This document shows, piece by piece, positions 2,627 through 51,536 of a stretch of 53,971 bases of DNA. A program made the position numbers and the translations under genes. The notes beneath the pieces were generated by a model. It saw nothing but the letters and a program-made list of their open reading frames with translations. It was not told the origin of the DNA and did no database searches. Origin of the DNA: Dicyema japonicum (lineage: Eukaryota; Dicyemida; Rhombozoa; Dicyemidae); NCBI GenBank assembly GCA_011109175.1, contig RDEW01000094.1, forward strand, positions 51,350-105,320, given 5' to 3'. Within the stretch, counting starts at the first letter, position 1, and every line of letters starts with the position of its first letter.

Positions 2627-2639
2627 AACTGAAGAGTCG

Positions 2640-2884: not shown

Positions 2885-2932
2885 TTTTTTTTTTTTTTTA
2901 AACAAAAATTTATTAACAATAAAATATTATTA

Positions 2933-5950: not shown

Positions 5951-5975
5951 AACAAGACCACACGTTTTATTTCCT

Positions 5976-6034: not shown

Positions 6035-6065
6035 GAATAACTAAATTTTTTTTTCTCGTGGCGTC

Positions 6066-15391: not shown

Positions 15392-15408
15392 TAACTTTAG
15401 GATTCTTT

Positions 15409-16566: not shown

Positions 16567-16596
16567 GGCAACCAAAATTCGGAAAAATTCCTTATT

Positions 16597-16610
16597 ACTT
16601 TTTCGTCCAA
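16597..16610. repeat. Target-site duplication of copy B, right copy
   Basis: Same 14 bases as 12678-12691. The codons flanking it (KICLV-LDEK on this side, DEKVVPL on the far side) join in one frame of the interrupted family 2 gag-like ORF. Confidence 0.85.
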
Positions 16611-16659
16611 GACAAGACAAATTTTATTTTCTAACAAACCCCAAAACTAATTACTGTAA

Positions 16660-27480: not shown

Positions 27481-27545
27481 CGGGTGTTTTTCTCGTAAAG
27501 ACAAGAGCGTTTCAGGGATGTTTTTAAGTGTCCCAGGATCACAAA

Positions 27546-28177
27546 CTAATAGCCGTACAGCACCACGATATCGTTTTCCATAAGTTTCATCCTGATTAGT
27601 TTCTTTATTAAGCGAAGTTCCTCCGTTTTCGGACGCTTTGAACTCCGGGGTGCAATTTGAGTTGATTTTAAAGCAGTAAGTGACATTTTATGTTCATTTA
27701 GAAACAGTCTAACTCTCTTTTTGATATTCGTTGCGAGAGAAGTGGATGCTTCCGTTGGTCTTCTGATCCCAAGAGTGAGTGACGGGAAAAGGAAAAATTT
27801 GACCCATTCCGAAGAAACGGCGTCAGGCTTCAAAACATCCTTGATGGTGGAGATCAGAGCCTCGGCAACAGCAGTTCTCGCACCTTTGGGAATCTTCACA
27901 GGAATGGTCACGTCCGAGCGCGTTCGAGAGATCAGTTTCAGAGCTTCATCAGGATCTGCTACGAGAGGTCAAACGGTTCAATGCAAGCAGCAGATGAAAG
28001 GCATGGTTGGCAGTTCCATTTTGTCATATTGATAAGAGCCTTCTTGGACACTCCTACGCAAGACCTGTGATATCATCTTGAACAGGCTGCACAAGCGATC
28101 ATCCTTTTTCTCATATTAGTTACGTTGCACTTTTCACATGGATAGGTGTTTTCCTTCCTTTCTTCATTAGTCTTCAT
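27546..28177 (-). pseudogene. PHD finger and linker of R2-like element 2
   Basis: From the ATG at 28177 the frame reads a zinc pattern YPCEKC...CAACS, a stop, then YHRSC and WNCQPC: a PHD-like C4HC3 spacing with an in-frame TGA after residue 35. The downstream frame 27911-27546 is the conserved linker (PVKIPKGARTAVAEAL, PSLTLGI). The single nonsense codon suggests recent loss of this part. Confidence 0.7.
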
Positions 28178-28179
28178 TG

Positions 28180-30540
28180 TTGTGTCTGTATTTTCGTAAC
28201 AACCACGTCGACAACACGATTAAAATGCACGACAGCACTATTATATATAATAATTAAAAAATTAAAATTGCAGTGTTGAAATAATTAAAAAAAAGTAAAG
28301 TTAAAAAAATTAACCTTACAATTTATTTTTTTAACTTTATAATTTTTTTAAATATAAAGGAGAACGTTTATAAATAATGAAAAAAATGAATTTGTTTAAA
28401 ATTTAACTTTATTAACTTTATCACCCCCTAATTATAGTATATCATAAATTTGATAATGGTGATTATTACACAAGATCATATTAACTCCCATCCTACAACT
28501 TTGACAGATGATGATCTTCAAAGTTCTATCAATTTTTGGTGGACATTCGAAAATGGATCCTAGGTGTACCAGATGCTTTCTTTCGTCATAACTTTGAGTT
28601 TCCAACTAGGACGTCATTTCTTCTATGTTTGCAAGAAGTTTGTTTCTTCCATCATTAAGCAAAGTAGACATTTCGTCAATAAATTTAAATCGACGCCTCA
28701 ACCATCTGAAGCTCTTGACAATCATACATGCAAATGGCACTTCCTTTGCTCTGTCCGGTTTAATATGTCTTTGAGTCCGTCACGTCGCCCATGCTCATGG
28801 GAAAAATAAAGCAAGTGCTTTCATACAGTAATTTCTCTTTCAACTATAAAATTGCCATATTTTGCTCATAAACACTCTGAAATTTCATTCTTTATTATTC
28901 ATTAATGTCAAATCAGACTTTTAATTTGATGGAAAATCATCTACTAACGCCGAACTGAGGTTTCTAAAAAGTCGTAAGTCATCTACTAACGCCGAACTGA
29001 AGTTTCGTTGTCGTCTCGAAACATGGGAAGTATTTAATTTTTCGCAGTTGTTCCATATGGGAATTTTTGAATTCCCTTCCATGATCTGTATGGAGAATAA
29101 TTGGAGATCCAATTATGCAAAAAAAATGCATTCAGGATTCGACATATCTTATTTGCAGATTTGCTAACGGCACTTTTACCACACCACTTTTCTACCATCT
29201 GTTAATTATATTGCAAAATAATTACCCATGAATAATTTTCATTTTGTGTGGAATATCACCTTACATCGACAAGATCTACAATGTCTCGCCCATAAGCAAC
29301 AATACCGTAATTACTGGTTTATTCGCAAGCATTCGCTTAGACAATAAGAATTAATAATTTCCCTGATAATAAACACATTTAGATACCACAGTAGCCACTT
29401 CACTGCGTCTTGCACCATAAATGGTAAGAACAATAAACTATGTAACGTCCAAAGTGATTTAGATCACGTTGAGCCTAATTTAAATCAACAAATATACGAA
29501 TAAATGTATTTTTGTTTTAATTCAGCTTCCTCAATACAAAAGAATCTCAACTCTCCCATTTTTAGTAATGTAGTCCGCGAATTCCTTGAAACTTTAAGCA
29601 TATCTGATTTTTTGCCCTTTTTCTCCAGTCAATGAATTCATCGAGATGTCCAGATTCACTGAAATTTTTTTTAATTGCCCTCGTGTTAATTCCACTAGGA
29701 CTATATTTTATAATTAATATTTTCAAAAAAACTATATAATAAGTTTTATTTTTTATTATTAATAATTTCTTCCAATGAAATGTTTTCTGAAAAAAATTTT
29801 TTTTTTTATTTTTCTCACCTCGCAGCTCTGGCGTCTCTGGACTGACATATTATCGATTCAGAATTGAGGGGATTATGATCACATTATGCAATCTAATGTA
29901 AAACGAGGATTTGCGAATATAAGGCATTCTTGTGTGTTGGTACAAACCTCCCCTTATGTTTTGATAGTGTAATACTATTCTACCCCACAATCAGAATTAT
30001 CAGTCCACCACAGAAAATTCTTCTGATTTTATTTCGTCAAGTGACCTGAATCTAGTAACCCTTTCAACAGGCTACAACACATTAACCACCACTCAATGAT
30101 TCCCTCAGTTTAGTTTCCAAAATTGTTGTAGTCCTTTATATCCACTTACTGAGTTCCAATTAGGATTACGTTTACTTAAGCACTTAAATCCTGAGATTCT
30201 GATCTGCAGAACCACCAACCTAATATAATAAACCTCCACCTATAAAGAAGTCAATAGTAAACAACTAATTAAGTGTATCCAGTTCCCATTGTCACAGAAA
30301 CAAAGTCCTCTCAATATCACACAAGCAGCATTAAACATAAAGACGTTTTGCGTGCGACCCTGGCACTGGGTGATCACATGACGCCACTCTATTAGAAAAG
30401 GGAAGAAGAAACAAATATAAATCTTCAAAAAAGTAGCCACATGGCGACACATTAACCACGTGGCTATTTATAAAAATAAATTATTTTATTATTATTATTA
30501 CTATAAAGGCCAATAAATAATTCAATCCAAGTGTTTTATT
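28180..30540. other. Unassigned AT-rich DNA
   Basis: No gene is recognised in 2.4 kb. A short tandem duplication of TCATCTACTAACGCCGAACTGA begins at 28939 and again at 28979. Poly(A) and poly(T) runs near 29790-29815 suggest old retrotransposon tails. The short open frames (81, 63 and 70 codons) carry no motif. Confidence 0.5.
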
Positions 30541-30552
30541 GATTATGGAAAA

Positions 30553-31857
30553 ATGATCTATGCCGAAGAAAAGCACGAAAAAGACATGTGTGCAATAGAG
30601 CCACGTCACCAGCTCAACCAAAAAAAAACTCTACGCAAGACACTATCACTTATAGTGCTGAACAGGATTGGATCTGACATCGAGAACTTTCTCTCTCACG
30701 GTCAAAGCGGATTCAGGTCAGGGAGATCTACAGCTGATGTGGTCTGGGGACATCGATGGCTTTGTACAACACATCAAAAGTACAAGGGGGCTATTAGCAT
30801 TCTTGGCATAGACATGTCCAAAGCCTTTGACTCTATACACAGAGGGAGACTTTTGGATATCTTGGAGAAGTTGGTTGACGAGGAAAGTGTCAGAATGATC
30901 CGTCTATTACTTGAAACAACGCAACTAAGTGTACGTTTTGGAAATTTGGAGTCTGACCCATTCAAGACAACGTTCGGGGTACTGCAGGGAGATTCCTAGT
31001 CACCGGTACTTTTTGTGACATATCTGGAGGCGGCACTCAGAGACTTCAGACTATTAATTGGCGATCTACCTCAAACTGAAGTGATTTATGCAGATTATAT
31101 CAACTATATATCCAGCGACGAGAAAACATTAAACTATATACGGACAAGGATGCCAGATGTCCTAGAAAAATGGTTCATCAAAATCAATACGGAAAAGACG
31201 GAGACAACTACCATACGCCGTGAACTAACCCGAACTGATGAAAAATGGAGATACTAAAAAATTGGGGTCGTTGCTGGAGACGCTGAGGATGTCACTAACA
31301 GGAAGATGTTGGCCGTCGCGGCCTTTAGAAAAATGGGAGTAGTCTGGAATCATCGTAAACAAATTAGCACACAATTACGTGTGAGACTATACAATGCCTT
31401 CGTGAAACCAGTCCTAATGTACAACGCTGCAACCTGGGGTGTCTCAGAAGCGGTAATGGACAAACTAGATGCCTTCCATCGTAAACAACTCCGACTGTTG
31501 CTTGGCATCAACTGGCCAAAAAAAATTACAAACAAGAATCTATACAAAGTATGTAATACAAGACCATTGAGTCTGGATATCCTTGAATCAAGATGGCGTC
31601 TGTTTGGTCACATCCTTCGAATGAGCCAGATGACGCCTGCTAAAATAGCAATGGAGAACTATTTCTGCCCAGAAGTGAATACCTCGTTCCGTGGAAGACC
31701 TCGCATAACTTTGCCAGAGGTTCTACACAAGGACCTGACCAATGTAGGACGAAAGCTGAAAACAGGAGATGATCTGGATACGCTCGGAATAACTGCCAGT
31801 AACCGCGGAGCATGGAGGAAGTTAGTCAAGAGAATTGTGGGAGAAAGAATAACCTGA
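30553..31857 (+). pseudogene. Reverse transcriptase of a further non-LTR family, 5'-truncated
   Basis: Three consecutive plus-strand frames. The first has GQSGFRSGRSTADVVW, motif A (GIDMSKAFDSIHR) and the start of motif B (GVLQGDS), then a TAG where most relatives have leucine. The second carries YADYINYIS, so the YADD catalytic pair has lost one aspartate. The third (31306-31857) is the thumb and C-terminal part (MLAVAAFRKMGVVW, FGHILRM) ending near 31857. No endonuclease is present and the N-terminus is cut. It differs clearly from the other RTs here; the clade is uncertain. An 11-bp direct repeat ATCTATGCCGA flanks it (30556-30566, 31930-31940). Confidence 0.75.
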
Positions 31858-33284: not shown

Positions 33285-34129
33285 TTTTCATATCTGTAGC
33301 AATGTGTCTTTTACATCAGCTTTAAAAACTGACCAAATATTCTCAATTGGGTTGAGCATACGGCTATAAAGACCCAATCTTAAAATTTTATTTCCGATGA
33401 ATTCATTATCTCTGACAATTTCTTCAATTCCTGAATGGCATGGAGCATTGTCTACTACTAGCACTACTGGAAAATTGTAAACTTCCCTGGCTTTTCGTAG
33501 ACAAATTCTCACCCATTCAGGCGGATTCTTTATTAAAGATCCACGTTGAAATCATAATGCAACAATCCAAGGGACCCGATGCAACCAATGAAATGTACAT
33601 TGGCACCTCGCGAACTTGTTGCAACGACATTAGCCCTTGTTCCTTTTTTGATCGACCCTTTTTACGGGATATGTGCATGTTTATATTTGTTTCATCCATA
33701 AATAATATTGGAATTTCCTCCGATTATATTCCCAATAATGAAGTAAATTTTTTTCTTTATTTAATTCACTATTTCCTTTCTCTGGTTCATACCTGATATC
33801 TTTCAAAGAATAACAGCACCGTCCAAGTGGACTCGAATGGTTTTTTTGAAACATTTAAGCTGAAATTAGAATTTAAAAGAATTCTCAAGTCTCAAGAGTA
33901 ATCCTAGGGTTAATTTCGAGTGTTCAACACAATAATCTTTATGTTATCAAGAAATTTTTGCTTTTGACCCCCTCGCTGATCAGGTTTGTTTTTTCAACCA
34001 ACGATAAGTAGTAGTTTTCGGAACATCGAGAGATTTTGCAAGTTCCCTCCAGTCACCATCTCCCTCATAAGCCCCGATAATAAGATTTTTCTTACTTGCA
34101 GCTTCAGACTTTTTTATTTGCGCAGGCAT
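33285..34129 (-). pseudogene. DDE transposase of mariner-1, frameshifted
   Basis: Starts at the methionine of MPAQIKKSE (34129). A helix-turn-helix DNA-binding region follows (WRELAKSLDVPKTTTYRWLKK), then a stop at 33980. Catalytic parts: DETNINMHISRKKGRS near 33690 (first D), VLVVDNAPCHSGIEEIV near 33450 (second D) and SRMLNPIENIWSVFK near 33340 (E). Thirty-five residues separate the second D from the E (DD35E). The middle part between the HTH and DETN is mostly unreadable. Several frameshifts and stops make it inactive, although the catalytic triad is still visible. Confidence 0.8.
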
Positions 34130-34339
34130 ATGTATAAAAAAATGAAATATTTGCACAGACATGCAAATATATAGGTTTTTGCTTAGTCACTTTTGCAATT
34201 GATCTCGAAACTTTTGCAATTGAAATTAATCTTCATCCTATAACAAAAAAATAATTTTTGTTCCACTTTGCTTTTGGTAAGACCCACTTTAAACCTGAAA
34301 TGGTATAGTTTTGTCTGTAATGGCTGCAACTACGATGGC

Positions 34340-34870
34340 AAATTCTCCCTTTCGTGAGTTCTTATATCCATAAGATGCAAGTATATTCATCATTCTTTTT
34401 TATCCTCCTTACTCTTTAGTTTTTTCCAGTATTCTCCCTACATTACATAATGTTTGTAACTTCCACTTAGACGCCATATGTCATCCGTATATAATGTCTG
34501 TTACTTCGTTGAGGTCCCTGGGTCGTTGGGGATCCATATAATTTGCAATGGCTGCATTCAATGCAGTAAGCACATCGTTCTGCTTAGGGATCCCTCACCT
34601 TAAACAATTTCGTGACATTTGAAATGCTCTTTCAGGTCGAAAAACTCTCATTGAAGGTGTCGGCAATCAATTGCAATCCACCAAGAGGAATCTTCTCGAA
34701 TCTTATTTTGTAACAGCCAACGACTTCACTCGTCCACTGAAACTTGTCATTGTGACAAACAAGAGCGATCACTGTCCTCAGAGGTAGTGGGTGGTCGAGT
34801 ACAGGCTGTTGTGGTCCACCACTAACCCCAAGTGGTTCATGCAGCCCTGAAGCCAAATGTCCTACTTCGG
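34340..34870 (-). other. Unidentified conserved coding region, left copy
   Basis: The frame 34856-34632 reads PLRTVIALVCHNDKFQW, TSEVVGCYKIRFEK and GGLQLIADTFNE. The right-arm copy keeps the same protein with few changes. Downstream (34600-34340) further frames read LTALNAAIANYMDP, RDLNEVTD and MNILASYGYKNSRKGEF, suggesting more exons separated by short gaps. I do not recognise the family. It could be a host gene with very short introns or part of an unknown element. Frames differ between the arms near its start. Confidence 0.4.
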
Positions 34871-35093
34871 ATAATGTATCTCTTCCATCAAATCAGTAGG
34901 AAGGCCAACAGGATTTGTTTCCGTACTTGAGAAAACTGACATACAATCAACCACACCAGACACACACGTTTTTTTATTACAGGTTTTTCCTATTTGTTTA
35001 ATAACTTTGTAAAAAAATTTACTAACTTTATCAAAATGTTTAATAACTTTGTCAAATATTTATGGGATTATTATATATTTATTGGACTATTAA

Positions 35094-37465
35094 TAATATT
35101 GGTCAACGCGTATTTCCCACCGTTGAGTTCCTGCTCTTCCAGTGTTCCCAGATTGACTTTCTCACATCACTGAAGAATGTGATTATCAGTGGTGACTTCA
35201 ATGCGAAACACCTACTGTGACTGACAGGACAAACCTACGACAAAAGAGGGAAGATGATAATTGAGGACCTACACAGCCTATGTATACTCAACGATCCCGC
35301 ATTCCATACAAGAACACTTACTGGACGTAACAATAAACCTTCTTCTATCGACATCTCACTATCATCACCGTCCTTGTCCCCTCTTATTGACTGGTCAGTG
35401 AATATGACACCCGGAGTGACCACAATCCAATATGTTTGGAGGTCAAAACGGGGTCACGGATAAAAGGACAATGTCCAACGATAACTAATTACAACCTTGC
35501 GAATTGGGAAGGATTCAAGGATTACGTCGATAATTGCATTGGACTATTAAATTTCCCCATTGTTCCCTCCGTCGAACAATTAGTGAAATGGTTCAACTCC
35601 ATAAACGCTGCAAAAGAAGTACACTCCTATGGGGAGGCAACCTACGTCATCAAAACGTTTCAACACAACGACGAAACATCTGATCAGAGAACGAAATAAT
35701 CTAATGATAGTAAAATCGCCAACAGAAAAGAACATCAGAAAAATACGAGAATTGAACAGAGAGATCGACAACACATAAAGGCAGAAAATGCAAATAGATG
35801 GACGAGACTATCGAAGCTCTCTGCAAAAACCCCCCAATGCAGAGAGTGTGGAAGTGATCAAGAACATCAAAAGATCCTCCCCAGAGAGAAAAGTCGAAGT
35901 CTACATAAAACCAGACACTCTGATAAAATATTACACATCTATCTCCTACAAGAAATTTTCAAAAGAACACCAAGTATTTCTGAAAAAGATTGAACCGAAA
36001 CGCTCCGATGACCGGATCCTATTTATAGTCAGGATGTTCGGAGAGCCATATCCAACAACTCAGAGGCCAAGGACCAGACAACATAACCACATGTGAACTG
36101 AGGCACCTGGGCCATCGAGCCCTGGAACTATTAGCCTATGTCTAACCTATCCATTAACACAAATACAATCCCTGAAATATGGAAGAAGTCTCTAATCAGA
36201 CCTATCCGAAAACCCAACAAACCAATAGATGAATTATCTTCCTATCGCCCAATATATATTTTAAGTCCGGTCTCAAGGATCCTTGAAAGGCTTGTTTTGG
36301 AATAAAATACAAGACTCAATCTCAATACCTCCGACCCAGCACGGATTCCGGGAACCATTCGACACAACACACCTTAAAACCCTCACACAATTCATTGCGG
36401 AAAGATTTAACTCCCCCAAACCCCATCAGAGGACAGTACTTATATCCGTGGACATCACAAAAGCGTTCGACTCAGTCCCTAGGAAACTCTAACAAAGAAA
36501 ATATTGAAACCAACATCCATCCGAACCTGAAACTTTGGCTTGGAAACTTCCTAAATGGAAGACGAGCACAAGTACTCTGCAACAACATCAAATCAAGATC
36601 TCGCTATTTCCCAAATGGAGTCCCTCAAGGCTCCCACTATCACCCCAACTCTTCAATCTCTACATAAACGACATGCCACAAACCTGTAATGAAAACTGTC
36701 TAATCTCTCCTATGCCGACGAAATCACTTTTGCTCCAAGGACAGAAGCATTCAATCAGCGACTCAGTTCTCAACAAATGCTTGACAAGCTGGAACTATGG
36801 CTCTCGAAGGAGACTCGACACATCAGCACAAAGTTTTCTGTCACGCTGTTTACCACTTAACAAAGACAGCTCTGTATCGAACCAAAAATTTTCATGAAGA
36901 ACGAAGCTATTCTATTAACAAAACACCGAAGATTCTGGGAGTAACCTTTGATCAGGGACTCACCTTTACCCGACATGTTGAAAACAAAGTAACTTCTGCT
37001 CTGAAAAAATGAGAATTTAAAAGTGCTCTCAAAAACACTTAGAGACCAAACTGCGGTTTTGCCACGATTTTTGAAACAATTTATCCGACCAACGATAACG
37101 TATGCAAGTGCTTCGTGGGCAATGCAGATTTCACGATCCTCCTCATTGAAACTATCCGCAATCGAGGAGACTGCAATAAGGTTAAAGACCAGAAAACAAA
37201 ATCTAGCCCATTGAAAATTTCTTAATCGAATTACAACGGAAACTCTTAAAGGATGCTATTTTACCGAGCTGCCCTCTATTCCATACACTATCAAATATCT
37301 ACAATCATACAGAAATTTTGAGCCGATGGCATGTCCAATGAGATGAGCTGTTCAGGATTCTCGACCCCGGACTCGTCCTTACCTTTGTCGATCTGGGATC
37401 ACGAAGTTAGATGAGAGCTTTTATTTCTTTCTCTTGATACAGTGATCCTGGAGGTAACAATAATA
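35094..37465 (+). mobile_element. CR1-like non-LTR element nested in mariner-2, left arm, 5'-truncated
   Basis: Flanked by ATTGGACTATTAA (35081-35093) and ATTGGATTATTAA (37466-37478), a probable 13-bp target duplication with one change. It starts within the endonuclease (VIISGDFNAKH near 35190, SDHNP near 35420). RT pieces follow: TAG-interrupted fingers, motif A (SVDITKAFDSVPRKL near 36470), motif B (NGVPQGS near 36620) and thumb (LGVTFDQGLTFTRHVENK near 36940). It is riddled with frameshifts; the right-arm copy is better preserved. Confidence 0.8.
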
Positions 37466-37509
37466 ATTGGATTATTAAGTTCCTATAAAAACAAATTTTC
37501 GCTCTAAAT

Positions 37510-37970
37510 GAATAGTTACAGGAACAAAAATACTACTGTATCCGAGGATAACCGAAAACTTATAAATAAATATGAAGCAGGGTTGGCTTATTCAAAAATA
37601 AGCAAAAACATCTGTATTAACTACCAGACAGTTGTTTCTAGCGTTAAAATACAAAAATACTGAAAGTTTTGCCTGCATCAATTCACAAGAGCGAGCAATT
37701 AAAAAATGTTGTATTAGGAACTGGCGTCCAATTAATTTTTAACGTGTATAGAGTATGAATTGTATTTTTGCCTCCTTATACTCCTCAACTTAGTCAAATT
37801 GAAGAGTTTTTTTCCGTTGAAAAAATAACATCAAAAAAAAAATTGTAGGAACTCTAAGGAATTAATAAACGCAATCCAAAACATCAGAGAAATTTCATCA
37901 GATGTGTGCAATAATTTGTAATTCCACATGCAGAGCTATTTAGTAAAGCATTGGCTAATGAGGAATTTTA
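37510..37970 (+). pseudogene. Transposase remnant of mariner-2, left arm
   Basis: The frame from 37510 (NSYRNKNTTVSEDNRKLIN, then SKISKNICINYQTVVSS) is a helix-turn-helix N-terminus. After a stop, a further frame near 37770 reads LPPYTPQLSQIEEFF, the conserved segment around the last catalytic acidic residue. The catalytic core between them is deleted. Confidence 0.65.
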
Positions 37971-38029
37971 ATTTACTGTTGTTTTTTTAATTAATTATTA
38001 AATATGTTTTTTAATTTGACCTATGACAG

Positions 38030-38160
38030 TTACTAAACATTTTGACAAAATTATTAAGTATTTTGACAAATTATTAAAAATTTTGACAAAATTATTAAAT
38101 TTTCTGACATTGTTAATAAATTTTATTATAAAAAAAATTTATTAAATAAAAAAAACCCTG
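38030..38160. repeat. Subterminal ~20-bp repeats, right end of mariner-2 (left arm)
   Basis: Four to five copies of TTTTGACAAAATTATTAA-like units. Inverted counterparts lie at 34995-35060. Confidence 0.7.
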
Positions 38161-38185
38161 TATTAATACAAATATAAATAATGAA

Positions 38186-40632
38186 TCACCCATTGCCATA
38201 AATGGTAGAACTGTGAGTAATAATGATAAAATACTGAAATTGTCGTGAAAATAAATAAGTTGCACAATCATGCCCACATCCAGAAGGACAGTAAGTGTTA
38301 GTTTCAAACCACTGTGTCATGTGATTCAGATGTCCTCCGTGTTTACATCCTTGACACCACGTGGTCAACCCAATAACCGGATTATTACTATAATAAACAC
38401 AAAAGTCACCATAAACTGCAAATAACCAAATAATCACCACATTTCTTGCATTTTGTTGATTTTCGCTCCATGACATCACAACTTGGCTTATTCATGCACC
38501 TCAATCGAAAAGTTGTGTTATTCTGAATTTCTTCCCCAATCTCAGAGAAACCCCCGAACTTAATGACCTCTGCTGAGACCATAAAGAGTTCGAATTTCTT
38601 TAACAAATCTCATAATAAGCAAATCGTGGACCAATATAGTTCATAATAAAATTCACCGCGTCTTTTCTTTTCAGAAAATCACCAAACCAGTCCATCCCCA
38701 ATGTGAGAATCATCGTGGATGCCATTTGAATGTCCCCCTCGAATAATTCCGGGAAGTACCTTCTCCACATAGTCTTCAATCGTGTCGACTGTGGATTCAA
38801 TAAGTACCCTACGAGCCTTAAACCTCGAATCAGTCTGAAGGGTGTTGTGAACGACTAAAAATAAGGCGAAAAAAACCCGTAAGCTGATCCTCCTCATTCA
38901 GAGTACTATAAGTGTACACTGGCTCTGTTTCATTGATAGTCTTCCTGCGTGTAATGGACACCTTTCTGAGATTGCGAGTAGTGAATAGTTTGAGGTCGGT
39001 TATCTGTCCCCTCTGGTATTCTTCCTGATAGTTTATACACTCCTCTAAGATTATTACCAGAGACAACCGTAAATTGACGATTCGTTGGGTTCCTCTTTAC
39101 TAGAGGCTATATATAGAAAATACGGAGTTTAAGCGAATTTATGACCTGCTTTAAAATCAACCAAGAAGCTTCGACTTCATCACGACCGAGTTTTTTGGCT
39201 ACGTTAGCGTTGTGTTGACATAAATAAAAGGGGTCACTTCCGTAGAACTTTAGTTGTTCAGCAGACTTGACAAACCAATCATTGGACTCCAGCTATGATA
39301 AATCAAACAAGGGTACTTCAGTCCGTTTTAGCGTAGTCTCTACTTTAGACCTACTCCAAGAAAGTTTCTTCTTGTCAGGTTTTTTTCGATCTGTTGTCTT
39401 TTCAAGATTGTAGGTGGTACAAGTCATCATTCCATCAATTTCAATGTCGATGCAATTCCTACTATATTGTGGTGGTGAAATTCTTTGAGCTTTTTGTAGA
39501 ACAAATCTGATCAACAAGTTACTGAGTCCACCAGAGAATAACTCCTCCCCAGACCGACCCCTCCAAGCAATGTCCACTGAAAGCTGTTACCACCACATAC
39601 TTATTTTGGTTTCCATATCAGAATGAATCACTCCATATGGAGAATATGGGTTCATTAGGTCCCAGATATTGATCATATTCTTATAGGTACCAGATAGGGT
39701 AGTGAACTGAGTCCTATGATTAAAAAAACGGTCTTACCTGTAACCAGGTCTCCATCTTACTTTAATGATATCTCCAGACCCAGAATTGATCTTGTTGACC
39801 TTTTCGGCGCTGTGGTCAAGGTCCCAAATCTTAAAATAAGATAAGTCTACAAAAATATTATTTTGTCCCTTTCCTGTAGAAACAATCACATTGTGGTCAG
39901 GATGCCAATCTATGCTATTAATTCGGCCAGTGTGAGCATGAAAATGACACACGTGTCTTTTAAAATTCCTTGAATCCCATATTTTGATTGATCCGTCAAT
40001 TAGAGCTGTGGCAATTAAGGATGACCCTGAATGTTTAGAGAATCTAACATCAGAGATTGCTAGCTCCTCTTGGAAAAATCTCTGGTTTCGTTTCACTCGT
40101 TTGTCCTTTAAGTCACAAATACTTCAACCATTATTTTAACCGCTCCTTTTTGGAAGGCCATCAATAGGTTGTGTTTGCTGAGTGGATCAAACGTTATGTG
40201 CGTGACTAGTCCATCCTTACTTGTCTTTTTGTCCACTAGTCGTCATAAATCAAGAGAACCTGTACAAGGTGACCGGATTTCTGCTCTGTTAATGTCCCAG
40301 TAAAACGCATTTCCTGAATCGTCTAGTGAAGCCAATACGTTGACTAAAGTGGTAAACTTGTAACTACCATTCTGTTTATTCCAACTAATGTCAGTGATAT
40401 TCTCAATTATCCCCCCTTCCGTGAAAGGTCGTAGCAGATTATGCAGTAGACAGAGACTGCCTGAACAAGAGTCTACCTTGTAGACTGAGAGTACTGAAAT
40501 GAATATCTTTAACACCTTTGCGACCTCCAATACCACAATAAGTTCCGGTTTTATCAGCAGTAAGCACATTAATGCACCATGGAAGTTGCTAGCGTACACG
40601 AGTGGCTTAAGATCATAGTCAGGCATCATCAT
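38186..40632 (-). CDS. WDR24: WDR24 homologue (GATOR2 subunit), left copy, 14 exons with 17-24-nt introns
   Basis: WDR24 is a WD40-RING-like subunit of GATOR2, which relieves inhibition of TORC1 at the lysosome when amino acids are present. Reading from the ATG at 40632 and removing 13 GT...AG introns leaves exactly 718 codons including the stop, about 717 residues (human protein ~790). N-terminal WD40 repeats include DGSIKIWDSRNFK, FHAHTGRINSIDWHPDHN and IKVRWRPGYR. The middle helical part has CQHNANVAKKLGRDEVEASW and GDIQMASTMILTLG. The C-terminus is the zinc domain: TKCKKC, ICSLC (formed only after splicing), WCQGCKHGGHLNHMTQWF and CPSGCGHDC. All acceptors are intact and no stop interrupts the spliced frame, so it is probably functional. 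The extra ~20 residues after CGHDC are unusual. Mariner-2 ends 26 bp past the stop. Confidence 0.88.
38388..40367 (-). other. Set of 13 ultra-short introns in WDR24
   Basis: Positions (minus strand, high to low) with length: 40344-40367 (24), 40236-40259 (24), 40106-40128 (23; a 17-nt alternative donor exists), 39830-39850 (21), 39714-39737 (24), 39577-39600 (24), 39293-39316 (24), 39107-39123 (17, least sure), 39045-39067 (23), 38855-38876 (22), 38738-38759 (22), 38609-38631 (23), 38388-38409 (22). All start GT and end AG. Each was placed because the flanking codons then align with conserved WDR24 segments. The first and fourth are multiples of three without stops. Confidence 0.8.
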
Positions 40633-40639
40633 TCGTAAC

Positions 40640-41019
40640 TACCACTATTATGTTATTATTTTTAAATATTAATTTTACTTTATTTCAAAAAAATAAAATG
40701 ATTTTGCTGAAATTACGTTTCAAACGATTTAGATCACATATAATTAAATTAATCAAGAACAAACCTTGACGAGTGACGAGTGACGCCGTCATCAGTGGAT
40801 ACTCACTCCGTGACTGGATTGTCAAAAAGGACCCACACACAAGAAAACGAAAAAAAAGTGAAGATCAATCCTTGGTTCTACAATTAGTTAAAATTAACTG
40901 TTCTTTACTTAAATAAAGTGTGTGTTTTGCCTATGCGGAGCAATAAATATTATAGCTTTCTTGAAAAGGCTAAAAAAGAACAAATCTGGGAGCCTGGGTT
41001 GAATTTGAATCGCCCCTCC
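40640..41019. promoter_or_regulatory. Upstream region of WDR24 (left), shared by both arms
   Basis: About 380 bp between the WDR24 start and a CR1-family fragment. It is duplicated in the right arm (44478-44861), so both copies carried the same upstream DNA. It contains a short direct repeat GACGAGTGACGAGTGACG at 40768-40785. No core promoter motif can be assigned safely. Confidence 0.35.
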
Positions 41020-41690
41020 ATATCCAGAGATAAATCAGCGTATCTACCTTCACCACACACAGAAAAGAAAAATATACACTGTATTTGAGCATATATGGAG
41101 ACTATACCTATACAGATTCATCCAACTATTCTGGGAGTGACTTTCGACTCTTTGATGACATTCTCTCAACATTTGAAGAACGTTATGACAAAGGGTCTCA
41201 GGAAACTGAATATAATGTAACCGCTCTTAAAGTCACGGGAATGCGCTTCGTCTTGTACCAATCAACTTTTAAAACCTACGGTAGAGTATGCTTGTGCCAC
41301 ATGGACTTATGGAGTTCCAATAATCAAATTTGTACAAATCAATTTCCTAACAGCCAAAGTGGTACGTCTTAACGAATCTACCTGCCAATCTTTCCCCCAA
41401 TGCTTGACCACGCTTCAATCAAAAACAACGCTCCAGTTTCATCGGTTTTTGTGGTCATGAGACAATTAGTTTCTTCCATTCAAGACTATAAGCCTCAAAT
41501 TCACGTAAATTGGGAAAAAACACACCACTCTTCAAATCTTGTTGAAAGGTGATCGTCGTTCAAACAGGAAAGCAATGGACCTTGTGGAGGAACACAAGAA
41601 AAACTCTTGAATCCTAAATGAGGTGTTCCAAGATAACTTATATAATTGGTTTACTCACTCTTTCATGATGTTCGCTACACGGGTTATTGA
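41020..41690 (+). pseudogene. 3' fragment of the element 3 (CR1-like, 2A) family
   Basis: Aligns with 8098-8790 of element 3: TATCCAGAGATAAATCA at 41022 matches 8107, and AAGAACGTTATGACAAAGGG at 41175 matches 8264. It covers the RT thumb to the 3' end, with many substitutions and frameshifts. Only the first ~40 bases are present in the right arm. Confidence 0.8.
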
Positions 41691-43734: not shown

Positions 43735-44434
43735 AAATATCTCTTTTTTTTCTGGGATCATGATCTGCCTATTATCCTTCAATGGGAAATAATCTTTCAT
43801 AATCACCGCCAACTGACTTTGAGCCAATTTGGCAATTTCTATGATAATTTTAATTATATAAATCAATGATTTATTTTTTTGTTAAAAATTTATTTTATCA
43901 TTAATTTCTTAAAAAATATTTTTCTAATTAATAAAAATATAAAAAATATCCCTTGTTCCTTTTATGGGATCATGATTTTTCCTTTTCCTTTTGTGGGTGA
44001 TCATTCTTTCAAGGTTTCTGCCAACTGACTCTTCAACCAATTGGGCAATTTCTATATTAAATTTAATTATATAAATCAATGATTTATTGCTTTTGTTTAA
44101 AATTTATTATCATTAATTTCTTAAAAATATTTTTTCATTTATAAAAATATAAAAAATATCCCTTTTTCCTTTTATGGGATCATGATTTCCCTTTTCCTTT
44201 TGTGGGTGATCATTCTTTCAAAGTTTTCGCCAACTGACTCTTCAGCCAATTCGGCAATTTCCATATTAAATTTAATTATATAAATCAATGATTTATTGGT
44301 TTTGTTTAAAATTTATTTTATCATTAATTTCTTAAAAAATATTTCTCATTAATAAAAATATAAAAAATATCCCTTTTTCCTTTTATGGGATCATGATGTT
44401 CCCTTTTCCTTTTGTGGGTGATCATTCTTTCAAG
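43735..44434. repeat. Satellite units right of the TIR element (about 3)
   Basis: Three ~210-bp units of the 17.6-21.4 kb satellite, increasingly similar to its consensus toward 44434. The last stops in mid-unit at the ambiguous base. Confidence 0.85.
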
Positions 44435-44435: not shown

Positions 44436-44861
44436 CTGTGGTGAAGGTAGATACGCTGATTTATCTCTGGATATGGAGGGGCGATTCAAATTCAACCAGG
44501 CTCCCAGATTTGTTCTTTTTTTAGCCTTTTCACGAGAGCTATAATATTTATTGCTCCGCATAGGCAAAACACACACTTTATTTAAGTAAAGAACAGTTAA
44601 TTTTAACTAATCGTAGAACCAAGGATTGATCTTCACTTTTTTTTCGTTTTCTTGTGTGTGGGTCCTTTTTGACAATCCAGTCACGGAGTGAGTATCCACT
44701 GATGACGGCGTCACTCGTCACTCGTCAAGGTTTGTTCTTGATTAATTTAATTATATGTGATCTAAATCGTTTGAAACGTAATTTCAGCAAAATCATCTTA
44801 TTTGTTTGAAATAAAATAAAATTAATATTTAAAAATTATAACATAATAGTGGTAGTTACTA

Positions 44862-47240
44862 ATGATGATGCCTGACTATGATCTTAAGCCACTCGTGTAC
44901 GCTAGCAACTTCCATGGTGCATAAATGTGCTTACTGCTGATAAAACCGGAACTTATTGTGGTATTGGAGGTCGCAAAGGTGTTAAAGATATTCAATTCAG
45001 TACTCTCAGTCTACAAGGTAGACTCTTGTTCAGGCAGTCTCTGTCTACTGCATAATCTGCTACGACCTTTCACGGAAGGGGGGATAATTGAGAATATCAC
45101 TGACATTAGTTGGAATAAACAGAATGGTAGTTACAAGTTTACCGCTTTAGTCAACGTATTGGCTTCACTAGACGATTCAGGAAATGCGTTTTACTGGGAC
45201 ATTAACAGGGCAGAAATCCGGTCACCTTGTACAGGTTCTCTTGATTTATGACGACTAGTGGACAAAAAGACAAGTAAGGATGGACTAGTCACGCACATAA
45301 CGTTTGATCCACTCAGCAAACACAACCTATTGATGGCCTTCCAAAAAGGAGCGGTTAAAATAATGGTTGAAGTATTTGTGACTTAAAGGACAAACGAGTG
45401 AAACGAAACCAGAGATTTTTCCAAGAGGAGCTAGCAATCTCTGATGTTAGATTCTCTAAACATTCAGGGTCATCCTTAATTGCCACTGCTCTAATTGATG
45501 GATCAATCAAAATATGGGATTTAAGGAATTTTAAAAGACACGTGTGTGATTTTCATGCTCACACTGGCAGAATTAATAGCATAGATTGGCATCCTGACCA
45601 CAATGTGATTGTTTCGGCAGGAAAGGGACAAAATAATATTTTTGTAGACTTATCTTATTTTAAGATTTGGGACCTTGACCACAGCGCCGAAAAAGTTAAC
45701 AAGATCAATTCTGGGTCTGGGAATATTATTAAAGTAAAATGGAGACCTGGTTACAGGTAAGACCGTTTTTTTAATCATTGGACTCAGTTCACTTTCCTAT
45801 CTGGTACCAATAAGAGTATGATCAATATCTGGGACCTAATGAACCCATATTCTCCATATGCAATGATTCATTCTGATATGGAAACCGAATTAAGTATGTT
45901 ATGGTAACAGCTTTCAATGGACATTGCTCGGAGGCGTCGGTCTGGGGAAGAGTTATTCTCTGGTGGACTCAGTAACATGTTGATCAGATTTGTTCTACAA
46001 AAAGCTCAAAGAATTTCACCACCACAATTTCGCAGGATTTGCATCGACATTGGAATTGATGAAATAATGACTTGTACCAGCTACAGTCTTGAAACGAAAA
46101 CAGATCAAAAAAAATCTGACAAGAAGAAACTTTCTCAGGGTAGGTCTAATGTTGAGACTAAGCTTATACTGACTGAGGTACCCCTGTTTGATTGATCATA
46201 GTTGAAGTCCAATGATTGGTTTGTCAAATTTGCAGAACAACTAAAGTTCTACTGAAGTGACCCCTCTTATTTATGTCAACACAACGCCAACGTTGCCAAA
46301 AAATTCGGTCGTAATGAAATTGAAGCTTCTTGGTTGATTTTAAAGCAAGTTATAAATCTCCTTAAACTCCGTATTTTCTATATATAGCCTCTAGTAAAGG
46401 AGGAACCAAACGATTCGTCAATTTACGGTTGTCTCTGGTAATAATATTAGAGGACTGTATAAACTATAAGAAAGAATACCAGAGGCTAAAGATAACCGAC
46501 CTCAAACTATTCACTACTCTCAACCTCAGAAAGATGTCCATTACAAGCAGGAAGACTATCAATGAAACAGAGCCAGTGTACACCTACAGTACTCTGAATG
46601 AGGAGGATCAGCGTACGGGTTCTTTTCGCCTTATTTTCAGTCGTTCACAACAACCTTCAGACTGATTCGAGGTTTGAGGCTCGTAGGGTACTTATTGAAT
46701 CCACAGTCGACACGATTGAAGATTATGTGGAGAAAGTACTTCCCGGAATTATTCGAGGGACATTCAAATGGCATCCACAATGATTCTCACATGGGGATGG
46801 ACTGGTTTGGTGATTTTCTGAAAAGAGAAGACGCGTGAATTTTATTATGAACTATATTGGTCCACGATTTGCTTATTATGAGATTTGTTAAAGAAATTCG
46901 AACTCTTTATGGTCTCAGCAGAGGTCATTAAGTTCGGGGGTTTCTTCTGAGATTGGGGAAGAAATTCAGAATAACACAACTTTTCGATTGAGGTGCATGA
47001 ATAAGCCAAGTTGTGATGTCATGGAGCGAAAATCAACAAAATGCAAGAAATGTGGTGATTATTTGGTTATTTGCAGTTTATGGTGACTTTTGTGTTTATT
47101 ATAGTAATAATCCGGTTATTGGGTTGACCACGTGGTGTCAAGGATGTAAACACGGAGGACATCTGAATCACATGACACAGTGGTTTGAAACTAACAACTT
47201 ACTGTCCTTCTGGATGTGGGCATGATTGTGCAACTTAATT
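44862..47240 (+). pseudogene. WDR24: WDR24 homologue, right copy, degenerate
   Basis: Same gene as 38186-40632, inverted. Lesions seen directly: a TAA at about 44921 after FHGA where the left copy has TTA; the acceptor of the fifth intron changed from ATAG to ATTG (about 45777-45780); the acceptor of the sixth intron changed from TTCAG to TTCAA (about 45913-45917); and an extra base after WFETN near 47195 that shifts the zinc-domain frame. Missense changes are also scattered. Most other splice sites are kept, including the 21-nt and 22-nt introns, so the decay is fairly recent. A product would be truncated near residue 20 unless initiation occurs downstream. Confidence 0.85.
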
Positions 47241-47519
47241 TTCACGACAATTTCAGTATTTTTTCATTATTACTCACAGTTCTACCATTTATGGCAATGG
47301 GTGATTCATTATTTATATTGTATTAATACAGGGTTTTTTTATTAATAAATTTTTTTAAATAATAAAAATTTTTTAACAATGTCAGAAAATTTAATAATTT
47401 TGTCAAAATTTTTAATAATTCGTCAAAATACTTAATAACTTTGTCAAAATGTTTAATAACTGTCAAAGGTCAAATTAAAAAACAAATTTTATAGTTAATT
47501 AAAAAACAACAGTAAATTA

Positions 47520-47982
47520 AAATTCCTCATTAGCTAATGCTTTACTAAATAGCTCTGCATGTGGAATTACAAATTATTGCACACATCTGATGGAATTTCT
47601 CCGATGTTTTGGATTGCGTTTGTTATTTCCTTAGAGTCCCTACAATTTTTCTTTTTGATGTTATTTTTTCAAAAGGAAAAAAACTTTTCAATGTGACTAA
47701 GTTGAGTAGTATAAGGAGGCAAAAATACAATTCATACCCTGAACACGTTAAAAATTAATTGGATACCAGTTCCTAATACAACATTTTTTAATTGCTCGCT
47801 CTTGTGAATTGATGCAGGCAAAACTTACTGTATTTTTGTATTTTAACGCTAGAAACAACTGTCTGGTAGTTAATACAGATGTTTTCGCTTATTTTTGAAT
47901 AAGCCAACCCTGCTTCATATTTATTTATAAGTTTTCGGTTATCCTCGGATACAGTAGTATTTTTGATTCTGTAACTATTCAT
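47520..47982 (-). pseudogene. Transposase remnant of mariner-2, right arm
   Basis: The frame 47982-47788 gives the helix-turn-helix N-terminus (NSYRIKNTTVSEDNRKLIN). The PPYTTQLSH-like catalytic end follows in another frame near 47715. The core is deleted exactly as in the left arm, so the deletion predates the duplication. Confidence 0.65.
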
Positions 47983-48024
47983 TTAGAGCGAAAATTTGTT
48001 TTTATAGGAACTTAATAATCCAAT

Positions 48025-50418
48025 TATTATTGTTACCTCCAGGATCACTGTATCAAAGAGAAAGAAATAAAAGCTCTCATGTAACTTCGTGATCCCAGAT
48101 CGACAAAGGTAAGGACGAGTCCGGCCGGCGGGTCGAGAATCCTGAACAGCTCATCTCATTGGACATGCCATCGGCTCAAAATTTCTGTATGATTGTAGAT
48201 TTTCGATAGTATTTGGAAATAGAGGGCAGCTCGGTAAAATGCATCCTTTAAGAGTTTCCGTTGTAATTCGTTAAGAAATTTTCAATGGCTGGATTTTGTG
48301 TTCTGATCCAATTATCTTTATTCCGGTCTCCTCGATTGCCGATAGTTTCAATGAGGGGATCGTGAAATTGAATTGCCCATGAAGACTTGCATACGTCATC
48401 GTTGGTCGATAAATTGTTCATAAATCGTGGCAGGGTCACCAGTTTAGTTTCTAAGTGTTTTTGAGAGCACTTTTAAATTCTCATTTTTTCAGAGCAGAAG
48501 TTACTCTGTTTTCAACATGCCGGATAAAGGTGAGTCCCTGATCAAAGGTTACTCCCAGAATCTTCGATGTTTTGCTAATAGAGATAGCTTCGTTCTTCAT
48601 AAAGACTTTTGGTTCGATACAGAGCTGTCTTTTGTAAGTGGTAAACATCGTGACAGAGGACTTTGTTGCTGATGTGTCGAGTCTCCACTTCGAAAGCCAT
48701 AGTTCGAGCTTGTCAAGCATTTGTTGAGAGGACTGAGTCGCTGATTGAATGCTTCTGTCCTTGGAGGCAAGAATGATATCGTCGGCATAGGAGAGGATTA
48801 GACAGTTTTCATTACAGGTTTGTGGCATGTCGTTTATGTAGAGATTGAAGAGTTGGGGTGATAGTGGGGAGCCTTGAGGGACTCCATTTGGGAAATAGCG
48901 AGATCTTGATTTGATGTTGTTGCAGAGTACTTGTGCTCGTCTTCCATTTAGGAAGTTTCCAAGCCAAAGTTTCAGGTTCGGATGGATGTTGGTTTCGAAT
49001 ATTTTCTTTGTTAGGAGTTTCCTAGGGACTGAGTCGAACGCTTTTGTGATGTCCACGGATATAAGTACTGTCCTCTGATGGGGTTTGGGGGAGTTAAATC
49101 CTTCCGCAATGAATTGTGTGAGGGTTGTAAGGTGTGTTGTCGTCGAATGGTTGTCCCGGAATCCGTGCTGGGTCGGAGGTATTGAGATTGAGTCTTGTAT
49201 TTTTCCAAAACAAGCCTTTCAAGGATCCTTGAGACCGGACTTAGAATAGATATTGGGCGATAGGAAGATGGTTCATCTATTGGTTTGTTAGGTTTTCGGA
49301 TAGGTCTGATTAGAGACTTCTTCCATATTTCAGGGATTGTATTTGTGTTAATGGATAGGTTTAGATATAGGCTAATAGTTCCAGGGCTCGATGGCCTAGG
49401 TGCCTCAGTTCACATGTGGTTATGTTGTCTGGTCCTTTGGCGTCTGAGTTGTTGGCCTTGAATATGGCTCTGCGAACATCCTGACTAGTAAATAGGATCC
49501 AGTCATCGGAGCGTTTCGGTTCAATCTTTTTCAGGAATACTTGGTGTTCTTTTGAAAACTTCTTGTAGGAGATATCTGTATAATATTTTATCAGAGTGTC
49601 TAGTTCTATGTAGACTTCGCATTTTCTCTCTGGCTAGGATCTTTTGATGTTCTTGATCAACTTCCAGACTTTCTGCATTGGGGGGTTTTTGTAGAGAGCT
49701 TTCGATAGTCTCGTCCATCTATTTGCATTTTCTGTCTTTATGTTGTTGTCGATCTCTCTGTTCAATTCTCGTATTTTCCTGATGTTCTCTTCTGTTGGCG
49801 ATTTTACCATCTTTAGATTATTTCGTTTTCTGATCAGATGTTTCGTCATTGTGTTGAAACGTTTTGATGACGTTGGTTGTCTCCCCATAGGAATGTACTT
49901 CTTTTCGCAGCGTTTTAATGGAGTTGAACCATTTCACTAATTGTTCGACGGAGGGAAGTGGGGAAATTTAATAGTCCAATGCAATTATCGACGTATCCTT
50001 GAATCCTCTCCAATTGCAAGGCTGTAATTAGTTATCGTTGGACATTGTCCGTTTATCCCTGACCTCGTTTTGACCTCCAAAATATTGGTTGTGGTCACTC
50101 CGGGTGTCATATTTCACTGACCAGTCAATAAGAGGGCCAAGGACGGTGATGAAGTGAGATCTCGATAGAAGAAGGTTTATGTTACGTCGAGTAAGTGTTC
50201 TTGTATGAGATGCAGGATCGTTGAGTATACATAGGCTGTGGAGGTCCTCAATTATCATCTTCCCTCTTTTGTCGTAGGTTTGTCCTGTCAGTCACAGTGG
50301 GTGCTTCGCATTGAAGTCACCACTGATAATCACATTCTTCAGTGATGTGAGAAAGTCAATCTGGGAACACTGGAAGAGCAGGAACTCAACGGTGGGAGAT
50401 ACGCGTTGACCAATATTA
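48025..50418 (-). mobile_element. CR1-like element nested in mariner-2, right arm
   Basis: Bounded by TTAATAATCCAAT (48012-48024) and TTAATAGTCCAAT (50419-50431), the same imperfect 13-bp target duplication as in the left arm. The mismatch is shared, so it predates the duplication. Endonuclease pieces occupy 50028-50370, the linker 49634-49940 and RT 48250-49210. Confidence 0.8.
48481..49056 (-). pseudogene. RT palm domain of the nested CR1-like element, right arm (191-codon open frame)
   Basis: Continuous from motif A (MDITKAFDSVPRKLLTKKIF) through motif B (NGVPQGSPLSPQLFNLYIND), the active site LSYADDIILASKD and the thumb (LGVTFDQGLTFIRHVENR). It is the best-preserved RT palm of this family in the window. 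Frames on both sides are broken: fingers at 49011-49208, C-terminus at 48248-48439. The left-arm counterpart has lost the YADD frame. Confidence 0.75.
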
Positions 50419-50559
50419 TTAATAGTCCAATAAATATAAATAATAATCCCATAAATATTTGACAAAGTTATTAAACATTTTGATAAAGTTAGTAAATTTT
50501 TTTACAAAGTTATTAAACAAATAGGAAAACCTGTAATAAAAAAACGTGTGTGTCTGGTG

Positions 50560-51130
50560 TGGTTGATTGTATGTCAGTTTTCTCAAGTACGGAAACAAAT
50601 CCTGTTGGCCTTCCTACTGATTTGATGGAAGAAATACATTATCCGAAGTAGGACATTGGCTTCAGGGCTGCATGAACCACTTGGGGTTAGTGGTGGACAC
50701 AACAGCCTGTACTGACACCATACCTCTGAGGACAGTGATCGTTCTTGTTTGTCACAATGACAAGTTTCAGTGGACGAGTGAAGTCGTTGGCTGCTACAAA
50801 ATAAGATTCGAGAGGATTCTTCGTGGTGGATTGCAATTGATTGCCGACACCTTTAATGAGAGGTTTTCGACCTGAAAGAGCATTTCAATGTCACGAAATT
50901 GTTTTAAGGTGAGGGATCCTAAGGAACCGATGTGCTTACTGCATTGAATGCAGCCATTGCAATTATATGGCCCCAACGACAGGGATCTTAACGAAGTAAA
51001 AACATTTATACGGATGATATGGCGTTTTAAGTGGAAGTTACACATCATGTAATGTAGGAGAATATGAAAAACTAAAAGAGTAAGGAGGTAAAAAAGAATG
51101 ATGAATATACTTGCATCTTATGGATATAAG
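50560..51130 (+). other. Unidentified conserved coding region, right copy
   Basis: The frame 50672-50875 carries the same PLRTVIVLVCHNDKFQW, TSEVVGCYKIRFER and GGLQLIADTFNE segment as 34632-34856. A possible N-terminus lies upstream (SVFSSTETNPVGLPTDLMEE near 50575-50630), separated by a gap that differs in length by one base between arms, as a short intron could. Function unknown. Confidence 0.4.
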
Positions 51131-51182
51131 AACTCCGAAAGGGAGAATTTGCATAGTAGTTGCAGCCATTACAGAAAAACTA

Positions 51183-51536
51183 TACCATTTCAGGTTTTAA
51201 AGTGGGTCTTACCAAAAGCAAAGTGGACAAATTATTTTTTTGTTATAGGATGAAGATTAATTTCAATTGCAAAGTTTCGAGATCAATTGCAAAAGTGACT
51301 AAGCAAAAACCTATATATTTGCATGTCTGTGCAAATTTTCATTTTTTTTAATTGCCTGCGCAATAAAGTTTCTGAAGCTGCAAGTAGAAAAATCTTATTA
51401 TCGGGGCTTATGAGGGAGATGGTGACTGGAGGGAACTTGCAAAATCTCTCGATGTTCCGAAAACTACTACTTATCGTTGGTTGAAAAACAAAAACAAACC
51501 TGATCAGCGAGGGGGGGTCAAAAGCAAAAAAATTAT
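51183..51536 (+). mobile_element. Truncated mariner-1, right arm
   Basis: Starts with the terminal repeat TACCATTTCAGG and keeps the helix-turn-helix codons (NLIIGAYEGDGDWRELAKSL). Homology stops at about 51536, inside the transposase. The rest of the element and its second terminal repeat are absent. Confidence 0.8.

Follow-up and report, generated by a model that had tools for sequence, protein, structure and literature searches.

The window analysed here is a 53,971-nucleotide (nt) stretch of the genome of the dicyemid Dicyema japonicum (C184:51350-105320; genome of 64,672,829 bases in 191 contigs). On its minus strand, we found a gene for WDR24, a subunit of GATOR2, whose coding region is interrupted by segments with GT...AG ends that are mostly 21-24 nt long and that we interpret as spliceosomal introns. 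This copy of the gene is called copy A below; its extent is as follows.

38186..40588, minus strand: coding region of WDR24 (GATOR2 subunit), copy A, with 14 very short introns, located by homology, domain profiles, and spliced alignment

The stop codon lies at 38188-38186, and the conserved N-terminal frame is open from 40588. The first-pass annotation had named the gene WDR24, and the identification holds. In comparisons with solved structures, a stitched 581-residue protein that omits the middle of the gene had its top match to the WDR24 chain 7uhy_C (E 2.9e-62), with WDR59 at E 5.7e-21, such that it is closer to WDR24 than to WDR59, MIOS, or other WD40 proteins. Both PF00400 (WD40) and PF17120 (zinc domain) scored over their cut-offs in a 691-residue version of the protein, which thus combines an N-terminal WD40 propeller with a C-terminal zinc-binding domain. 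With the introns removed, copy A contains 691 codons, no stops, and no frameshifts.

The introns are listed below in the order of transcription. Twelve of the 14 were read by eye, and introns 11 and 12 were supplied by the gene model. Posteriors are those of the gene model, and score loss is the drop in the WDR24 alignment score when that one intron is kept.

40494..40515, minus strand: intron 1, 22 nt, GT-AG; weak, with a score loss of 1.5; outside the best path of the gene model
40344..40367, minus strand: intron 2, 24 nt; posterior 0.96
40236..40259, minus strand: intron 3, 24 nt; posterior 0.84
40106..40128, minus strand: intron 4, 23 nt; posterior 0.99
39830..39850, minus strand: intron 5, 21 nt; score loss 6.5; posterior 0.47, outside the best path
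39714..39737, minus strand: intron 6, 24 nt; posterior 0.99
39577..39600, minus strand: intron 7, 24 nt; posterior 0.79
39293..39316, minus strand: intron 8, 24 nt; posterior 0.98
39095..39123, minus strand: intron 9, 29 nt, posterior 0.56; a 17-nt version (39123-39107) has posterior 0.10 and a 62-nt alternative 0.23
39045..39067, minus strand: intron 10, 23 nt; posterior 0.97
38855..38876, minus strand: intron 11, 22 nt; from the gene model, posterior 1.00
38738..38759, minus strand: intron 12, 22 nt; called by the gene model at posterior 0.90; once it is removed, the WDR24 match continues upstream of GDIQMA
38609..38631, minus strand: intron 13, 23 nt; junction within YIDLLKKFELF; posterior 0.50, score loss 41
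38388..38409, minus strand: intron 14, 22 nt; junction at the zinc ligands ICSLC; score loss 51; posterior 0.49, outside the best path

Removal of these segments strongly improves the agreement with WDR24. The alignment score was 408.5 with all 14 removed and 177.5 with none removed, the opposite of the better unspliced alignment that would have spoken against introns. By comparison, when 14 non-overlapping GT..AG segments of 21-24 nt were drawn at random from the 47 candidates in the gene, 200 such draws gave a mean of 161.8 (standard deviation 38.4) and a maximum of 274.5. These scores bear out the claim of the first-pass annotation that very short GT...AG introns cut the gene, and the two protein segments that it had singled out, YIDLLKKFELF and ICSLC, do depend on removal of the introns at 38631-38609 (23 nt) and 38409-38388 (22 nt). 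Retention of a single intron costs 17 to 57 score units for 12 of the 14, all but introns 1 and 5. For intron 12, removal raised the best-chain match from 99.1 to 106.4 bits and the match to 7uhy_C from 97.9 to 105.6 bits. The spliced aligner joins codons across any donor/acceptor pair and has no length preference; left free on WDR24, it preferred a longer intron at some sites and spanned the unconserved middle with long artefactual calls. Among all 256 possible pairs of terminal dinucleotides, GT/AG ranked first in WDR24 (319, with the runner-up at 303.5; the other 255 average 216, standard deviation 34), and it was also the best pair in the two CCT chaperonin loci tried. With intron lengths in the CCT genes supplying its prior, the gene model called 11 of the 14.

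Two details of the first-pass annotation changed. It counted 13 introns where our model has 14, and of its length range of 17-24 nt, the upper part stands, with 13 introns at 21-24 nt, while the 17-nt member does not. That member corresponds to intron 9, whose 17- and 29-nt versions leave the reading frame identical and fall where there is no homologue to decide between them; a 17-nt intron is therefore unsupported, and we rejected it as a lower length bound. At intron 4, a 14-nt reading without GT-AG ends, which would give KICDLKDKRV, was considered on visual inspection and set aside in favour of the 23-nt GT-AG intron. All 13 firm WDR24 introns are at least 21 nt long, above the 15-16 nt known from Stentor.

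The 5′ end of the gene is less regular. The first-pass annotation had started a product of 718 codons (717 residues) at position 40632, and this product is not supported as proposed. The segment concerned is as follows.

40589..40632, minus strand: possible first exon starting ATGATGATG at 40632; its frame does not join the conserved N-terminal segment

The ATG at 40632 lies in a different frame from the conserved segment INVLTADKTGTYCGIGGRK, and in the sequence read by eye, no GT-AG intron longer than 11 nt leads from this ATG into the INVLTADKTGTYCGIGGRK frame. An 11-nt intron that would make this connection was not accepted. The other copy of the gene in the window (copy B, described below) has the same 5′ layout. 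The copies differ there at a single place, where the change is silent in the conserved frame but gives copy B a stop in the ATG frame, as would fit if the conserved frame is the one that codes. The break may reflect an odd 5′ arrangement, a start farther upstream, or a defect common to both copies.

Introns of the same class were found in each of nine CCT chaperonin loci elsewhere in the genome, such that WDR24 is unexceptional. The profile used to align these loci was built from eight CCT4 proteins of animals (chosen from at least 120 relatives, which are mainly animal among the named matches listed), and all intron lengths from 10 to 200 nt were equally allowed. This alignment, which had no length prior, gave 64 GT-AG introns with a mode of 23 nt; 25 were exactly 23 nt long and 53 were 21-25 nt long. 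The full distribution is as follows.

Nine CCT loci, intron length in nt (count): 10 (1), 11 (1), 17 (1), 18 (1), 19 (1), 21 (5), 22 (6), 23 (25), 24 (9), 25 (8), 26 (2), 27 (1), 29 (1), 40 (1), 42 (1)

Most of the nine loci probably encode CCT subunits other than that of the profile, and individual boundaries may therefore be wrong; the calls at either extreme of length are probably errors of placement. A run with learned splice-site weights, again free of any length prior, called 70 introns in these loci, 28 of them 23 nt long. In eight of the nine loci, 16 control dinucleotide pairs (of the 255) gave only 2-18 calls of 21-25 nt, compared with 51 of 62 calls for GT-AG. A wider ab initio scan used a gene finder trained on the CCT exons with a flat length prior and covered 74 other stretches (263,594 bases with overlaps), which take in the window including WDR24 and leave out the CCT loci. 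It returned 30 GT-AG introns with a posterior above 0.8, of which 15 were 20-27 nt long, whereas five controls gave 0, 3, 0, 0, and 1 introns of that length. A nearly uniform intron length between 20 and 30 nt thus recurs across genes. In the pooled set of 78 introns (65 of the 70 from CCT and 13 of the 14 from WDR24), the median was 23 nt and the mean 23.4 nt.

The CCT introns also differ in their stop content. After 3 of the 70 introns were dropped for lying outside 17-30 nt, an in-frame stop was present in 17 of 20 introns with lengths divisible by three and in 20 of 47 others (loci L009-L038; p = 0.0014; shuffled expectation 11.4 of 20). Planted introns were recovered less often when stop-free (37 of 48) than when stop-bearing (45 of 48), and for this reason the pattern is only suggestive of selection against stop-free introns of such lengths in the CCT loci. 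Paramecium reportedly has a stop excess in introns with lengths divisible by three.

A positioned adenosine provides further evidence on the nature of these segments. The analysis used 58 of the 64 prior-free CCT introns, those of 19-29 nt, with six dropped. Counted from the intron end, an A occupies position -7 in 33 of the 58 (background 26%, p = 8e-7) and position -8 in 19 (p = 0.17). Twenty-three of the 58 contain a yTnAy motif whose A falls at -7 to -9, compared with 6.9 ± 2.4 in shuffled introns. As a check, we used the 11 WDR24 introns of firm length that had been read by eye before the branch statistics were made. Six of these carry the yTnAy motif (p = 8e-4), six have an A at -7 (p = 0.04), and 10 have an A at -7 or -8. 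Both sets thus show an adenosine that resembles a branch point and keeps a preferred spacing to the 3′ end. The corresponding figure for 13 WDR24 introns (A at -7 or -8 in 12, p = 4e-4) is no clean held-out test, because position -8 was added after examination of a set that included WDR24 and because introns 11 and 12 were found with CCT-learned weights. When the 58 CCT and 13 WDR24 introns, minus one of other length, were sorted by length, the peak at -7 was sharp in those of 21-22 nt (88% of 16) and spread over -7 and -8 in those of 23 nt. If introns of 23 nt are set aside, 49% of the other 43 also have an A at position 16, counted from the 5′ end. This placement would give a loop of about 15-16 nt between the 5′ splice site and the branch. 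The 5′ site is weak past the GT (0.36, 0.17, 0.12, and 0.12 bits at +3 to +6), and a G precedes it in 62% of the 58 introns.

The genome also has matches to much of the machinery expected for U2-type splicing, with U2, U6, and SF1 over their cut-offs and U1 and U2AF below theirs. For U2 small nuclear RNA (snRNA), we found 25 matches, 22 of them over the cut-off and with GTAGTA kept, and for U6 snRNA 10 matches, nine over the cut-off and with ACAGAGA present. U1 snRNA has 11 matches that bear ACTTACCTG near the 5′ end, the best scoring 69.0 against a Rfam gathering score of 69.5. These three motifs, which were read by eye, are those that we take to be canonical for U2, U6, and U1, respectively. 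Families SF1, RED, Prp18, and Slu7 all have matches over their cut-offs, and for U2AF, an exon group at C114:219969-221071 spans the greater part of the model beyond position 168.

Taken together, these results lead us to interpret the WDR24 segments as U2-type spliceosomal introns of the ordinary kind, though extremely short, in a dicyemid gene, with a probability of roughly 0.92. The estimate draws on protein homology for the intron positions, on the 23-nt mode seen again in nine further loci, on the adenosine at its preferred place, and on the matches to snRNA and splicing factor families; actual splicing, lariat geometry, and the roles of the factors are what we infer. In such a scheme, U1 would mark the weakly defined 5′ GT, and U2 would pair at the adenosine located mostly 7 (or 8) nt before the last intron base in a yTnAy-like context. 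The branch A would then lie about 15-16 nt after the 5′ splice site, and the lariat loop would measure about 16 nt. Splicing could draw on SF1/U2AF and, for the second step, on Slu7/Prp18. RED-type help, in a role presumed here, may let the small nuclear ribonucleoproteins act far below the distance of about 50 nt found with human spliceosomes.

Both WDR24 copies in the window belong to an inverted duplication, with arms of about 7 kb that are 94.6% identical over 7,167 columns and a spacer of 3.4 kb.

33955..41057, plus strand: left arm of the inverted duplication, containing copy A; 94.6% identical to the right arm
44437..51530, minus strand: right arm of the inverted duplication; 94.6% identical to the left arm
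44862..47304, plus strand: WDR24 copy B, broken; introns 6 and 7 lack their 3′ splice sites, and the exons carry five frameshifting indels and one in-frame stop

The two copies are about 5% diverged, and copy A has none of the lesions of copy B. The 3′ splice site of intron 12 is kept in copy B, where a deletion sits in the following exon. Outside the window, a further near-complete WDR24-like match lies at C101:141346-143382 (64-65% identical in the two best matches), and other matches, some rearranged or partial, lie at C101:152719-153338, C113:223286-225434, C62:411804-412358, C62:359410-359586, and C109:928257-928394. WDR24 is therefore a small family in this genome. A 209-bp tandem repeat forms two arrays in the window, at 17577-21382 (18 copies) and at 43748-44433 (3 copies), the second within the duplication spacer. 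Many open reading frames resembling reverse transcriptases of the long interspersed nuclear element type and CCHC proteins were seen by eye on both strands at 1631-8642, 13020-17866, 25539-31857, and 48481-49218.

Several observations weigh against the interpretation as functional spliceosomal introns in an intact gene. Retention of intron 1 or intron 5 barely lowers the WDR24 score, and the margin of GT-AG over the next dinucleotide pair is narrow in WDR24 taken alone. With a flat length prior, only three of the eight introns that the gene model called in WDR24 were 22-24 nt long, and such a gene finder proved insufficient on this gene by itself. The 15 ab initio GT-AG calls outside 20-27 nt were at the level of the controls, which made 2-16 calls in all. 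In the 12 introns of 25-29 nt, the adenosine forms no sharp peak and is diffusely placed. On the side of the machinery, all 11 U1 matches fall under the Rfam gathering score and all 32 U2AF-model matches under the whole-protein cut-off, and two of the 14 control genomes, from bacteria and archaea, also give U2AF-model matches. The remaining points concern the gene itself. The 5′ frame break shared by copies A and B is without explanation, the amino-acid differences between the copies do not clearly favour A (of 38, 18 are better, 13 worse, and seven ties; p = 0.47), and the introns differ between the copies no more than the exons (3.37% vs. 3.62-4.79%) and have therefore not drifted faster.

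These last points touch on the alternative that survives best, namely, that copy A is itself a decaying duplicate with apparent frameshifts and that the working WDR24 is the copy on C101. The presence of several WDR24-like copies, one of them near-complete, the 5′ frame break, and the non-significant amino-acid comparison would all fit decay, as would the divergence at codon positions 1, 2, and 3 (4.64, 3.62, and 4.79%) and the share of nonsynonymous changes (55 of 83 changed codons). However, copy A retains 691 codons without a stop or frameshift, whereas copy B has two lost 3′ splice sites, five frameshifting indels, and an in-frame stop. We regard a decaying copy A as unlikely. The introns would stay real even then, because the same class is found in the CCT genes.

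A second alternative holds that the segments are germline inserts cut from DNA, not RNA, in the manner of ciliate internal eliminated sequences, the short members of which have a similar size range. Chromatin diminution in dicyemid somatic cells is indeed stated in the abstract of Zverkov et al. (2019; PMC6543705). However, the GT...AG ends, the G before the 5′ site, and the positioned adenosine are spliceosomal signatures, spliceosome families are matched in the genome, and a comparison of complementary DNA (cDNA) with genomic sequence in Dicyema acuticephalum led its authors to call such segments spliceosomal introns (Aruga et al., 2007; PMC2222250, in the part on introns). Elimination from DNA is thus very improbable. 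The weakest alternative, that AT-rich DNA full of GT..AG pairs (47 of 21-24 nt in the WDR24 gene) let sequencing errors be fitted by hand as introns, could appeal to the frameshifts that the aligner required in some CCT loci too but is scarcely credible given that random choices among those pairs never approached the observed score and that a 23-nt peak, far above the control dinucleotides, arose in nine other loci with no length prior.

The spliceosomal nature of the introns and the dicyemid affinity, both proposed by the first-pass annotation, gain support from the WDR24 scores, the CCT loci, and homeodomains followed by LTGP. Genome-wide, a six-frame, exon-by-exon search gave 67 homeobox matches, which argue for an animal and against a protist, as do the mainly animal CCT4 relatives among the named matches listed. 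A source in some other short-intron parasite, whether an orthonectid or a protist, is thus very unlikely. Two Lox5-like homeodomains are followed by LTGP, which we take to be the C-terminal Lox5 motif, in L047 and L054 (contigs C1 and C23; among 30 homeobox loci examined); this arrangement would fit DoxC and its paralog. The relevant section of Zverkov et al. (2019; PMC6543705) gives DoxC and a DoxC paralog with the Lox5 motif in three dicyemids. Homeobox counts in print include 16 genes in the D. japonicum genome paper (Lu et al., 2019; PMC6736024) and 55 in a transcriptome (PMC6543705), as given in the portions dealing with these genes; tiny introns may have hidden homeobox genes from gene prediction.

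Tiny introns have long been reported from dicyemids. According to the passages on intron size, D. acuticephalum introns have a mean of 26.2 nt (n = 16; Aruga et al., 2007; PMC2222250) or, for 41 introns, a median of 25 and a mean of 24.9 nt (Irimia and Roy, 2008; PMC2483917), and those of Dicyema sp. have a median of 27 nt with about two thirds below 30 (Zverkov et al., 2019; PMC6543705, which cites Ogino et al., 2010 on dicyemid introns). The D. japonicum gene set has an intron mean of 38.2 bp (Lu et al., 2019; PMC6736024), and orthonectid introns have a median of 57 bp (PMC6543705), which speaks against an orthonectid source. WDR24 is one more gene of a kind in print since 2007-2008, with dicyemid introns averaging about 25-26 nt; no paper on WDR24 in dicyemids was among the literature matches listed, which is no proof of absence. 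The suggestion of the first-pass annotation that the locus lies at or below the dicyemid mean agrees with our lengths (21-24 nt for 13 introns, and a CCT mode of 23). The new detail is the positioned branch-point-like adenosine, with its peak 7 nt from the intron end.

These introns matter for how an animal spliceosome works. In the portion of the study on human spliceosomes that deals with distance, about 50 nt are needed between the 5′ splice site and the branch site, and RED and Smu1 help when this distance is short (PMC6692369). Here, whole introns are about 23 nt long in an animal with SF1, Prp18, Slu7, and RED matches. How an animal spliceosome fits such introns becomes directly testable, since the assembly is contiguous, a candidate branch position is at hand, and transcriptomes have been deposited. 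Gene finders and read mappers with longer minimum introns would be expected to misread dicyemid genes.

Compared with known systems, the protein itself resembles human WDR24 in GATOR2 (PDB 7uhy, chain C), to which the WD40 propeller and the zinc-domain-bearing C-terminal part of copy A align; its sequence is divergent, and human residues 456-646 are unaligned to the 581-residue query, from which the gene middle was left out. As a GATOR2 subunit, it would be expected to assemble with MIOS, WDR59, SEH1, and SEC13. The introns share their animal group and their setting in intron-rich genes with the dicyemid introns described in the sections cited above (PMC2222250, PMC6543705, and PMC6736024) and differ from them as printed in being slightly shorter and in having a positioned adenosine. 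Weak 5′ splice sites are common to our set and to the short-intron class of Paramecium, the Bigelowiella nucleomorph, and dicyemids set out by Irimia and Roy (2008; PMC2483917). That paper, however, states that dicyemids show no branch-point signature, and its table counts the commonest motif, whereas more than half of our 58 CCT introns have an A at -7. No later paper on a dicyemid branch-point signature was among the matches listed in a literature search of incomplete coverage. On balance, we lean towards dicyemids having such a signature, in which introns clustered at 23 nt would hold their branch A at a set place, 7-8 nt short of the 3′ end and about 15-16 nt past the 5′ end, with a lariat loop of about 16 nt and the main splicing factor families kept, a geometry otherwise described in ciliates. 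The closest ciliate parallel is Stentor coeruleus, with introns of 15-16 nt (PMC9505925, in its parts on intron structure and spliceosomal proteins). Its introns are about 8 nt shorter than ours, and Slu7 and Prp18, both matched here, are listed as not found there. As in our introns, its branch A is fixed near the 3′ end (the 10th of 15 positions in 90.9% of introns), and most spliceosomal proteins are kept.

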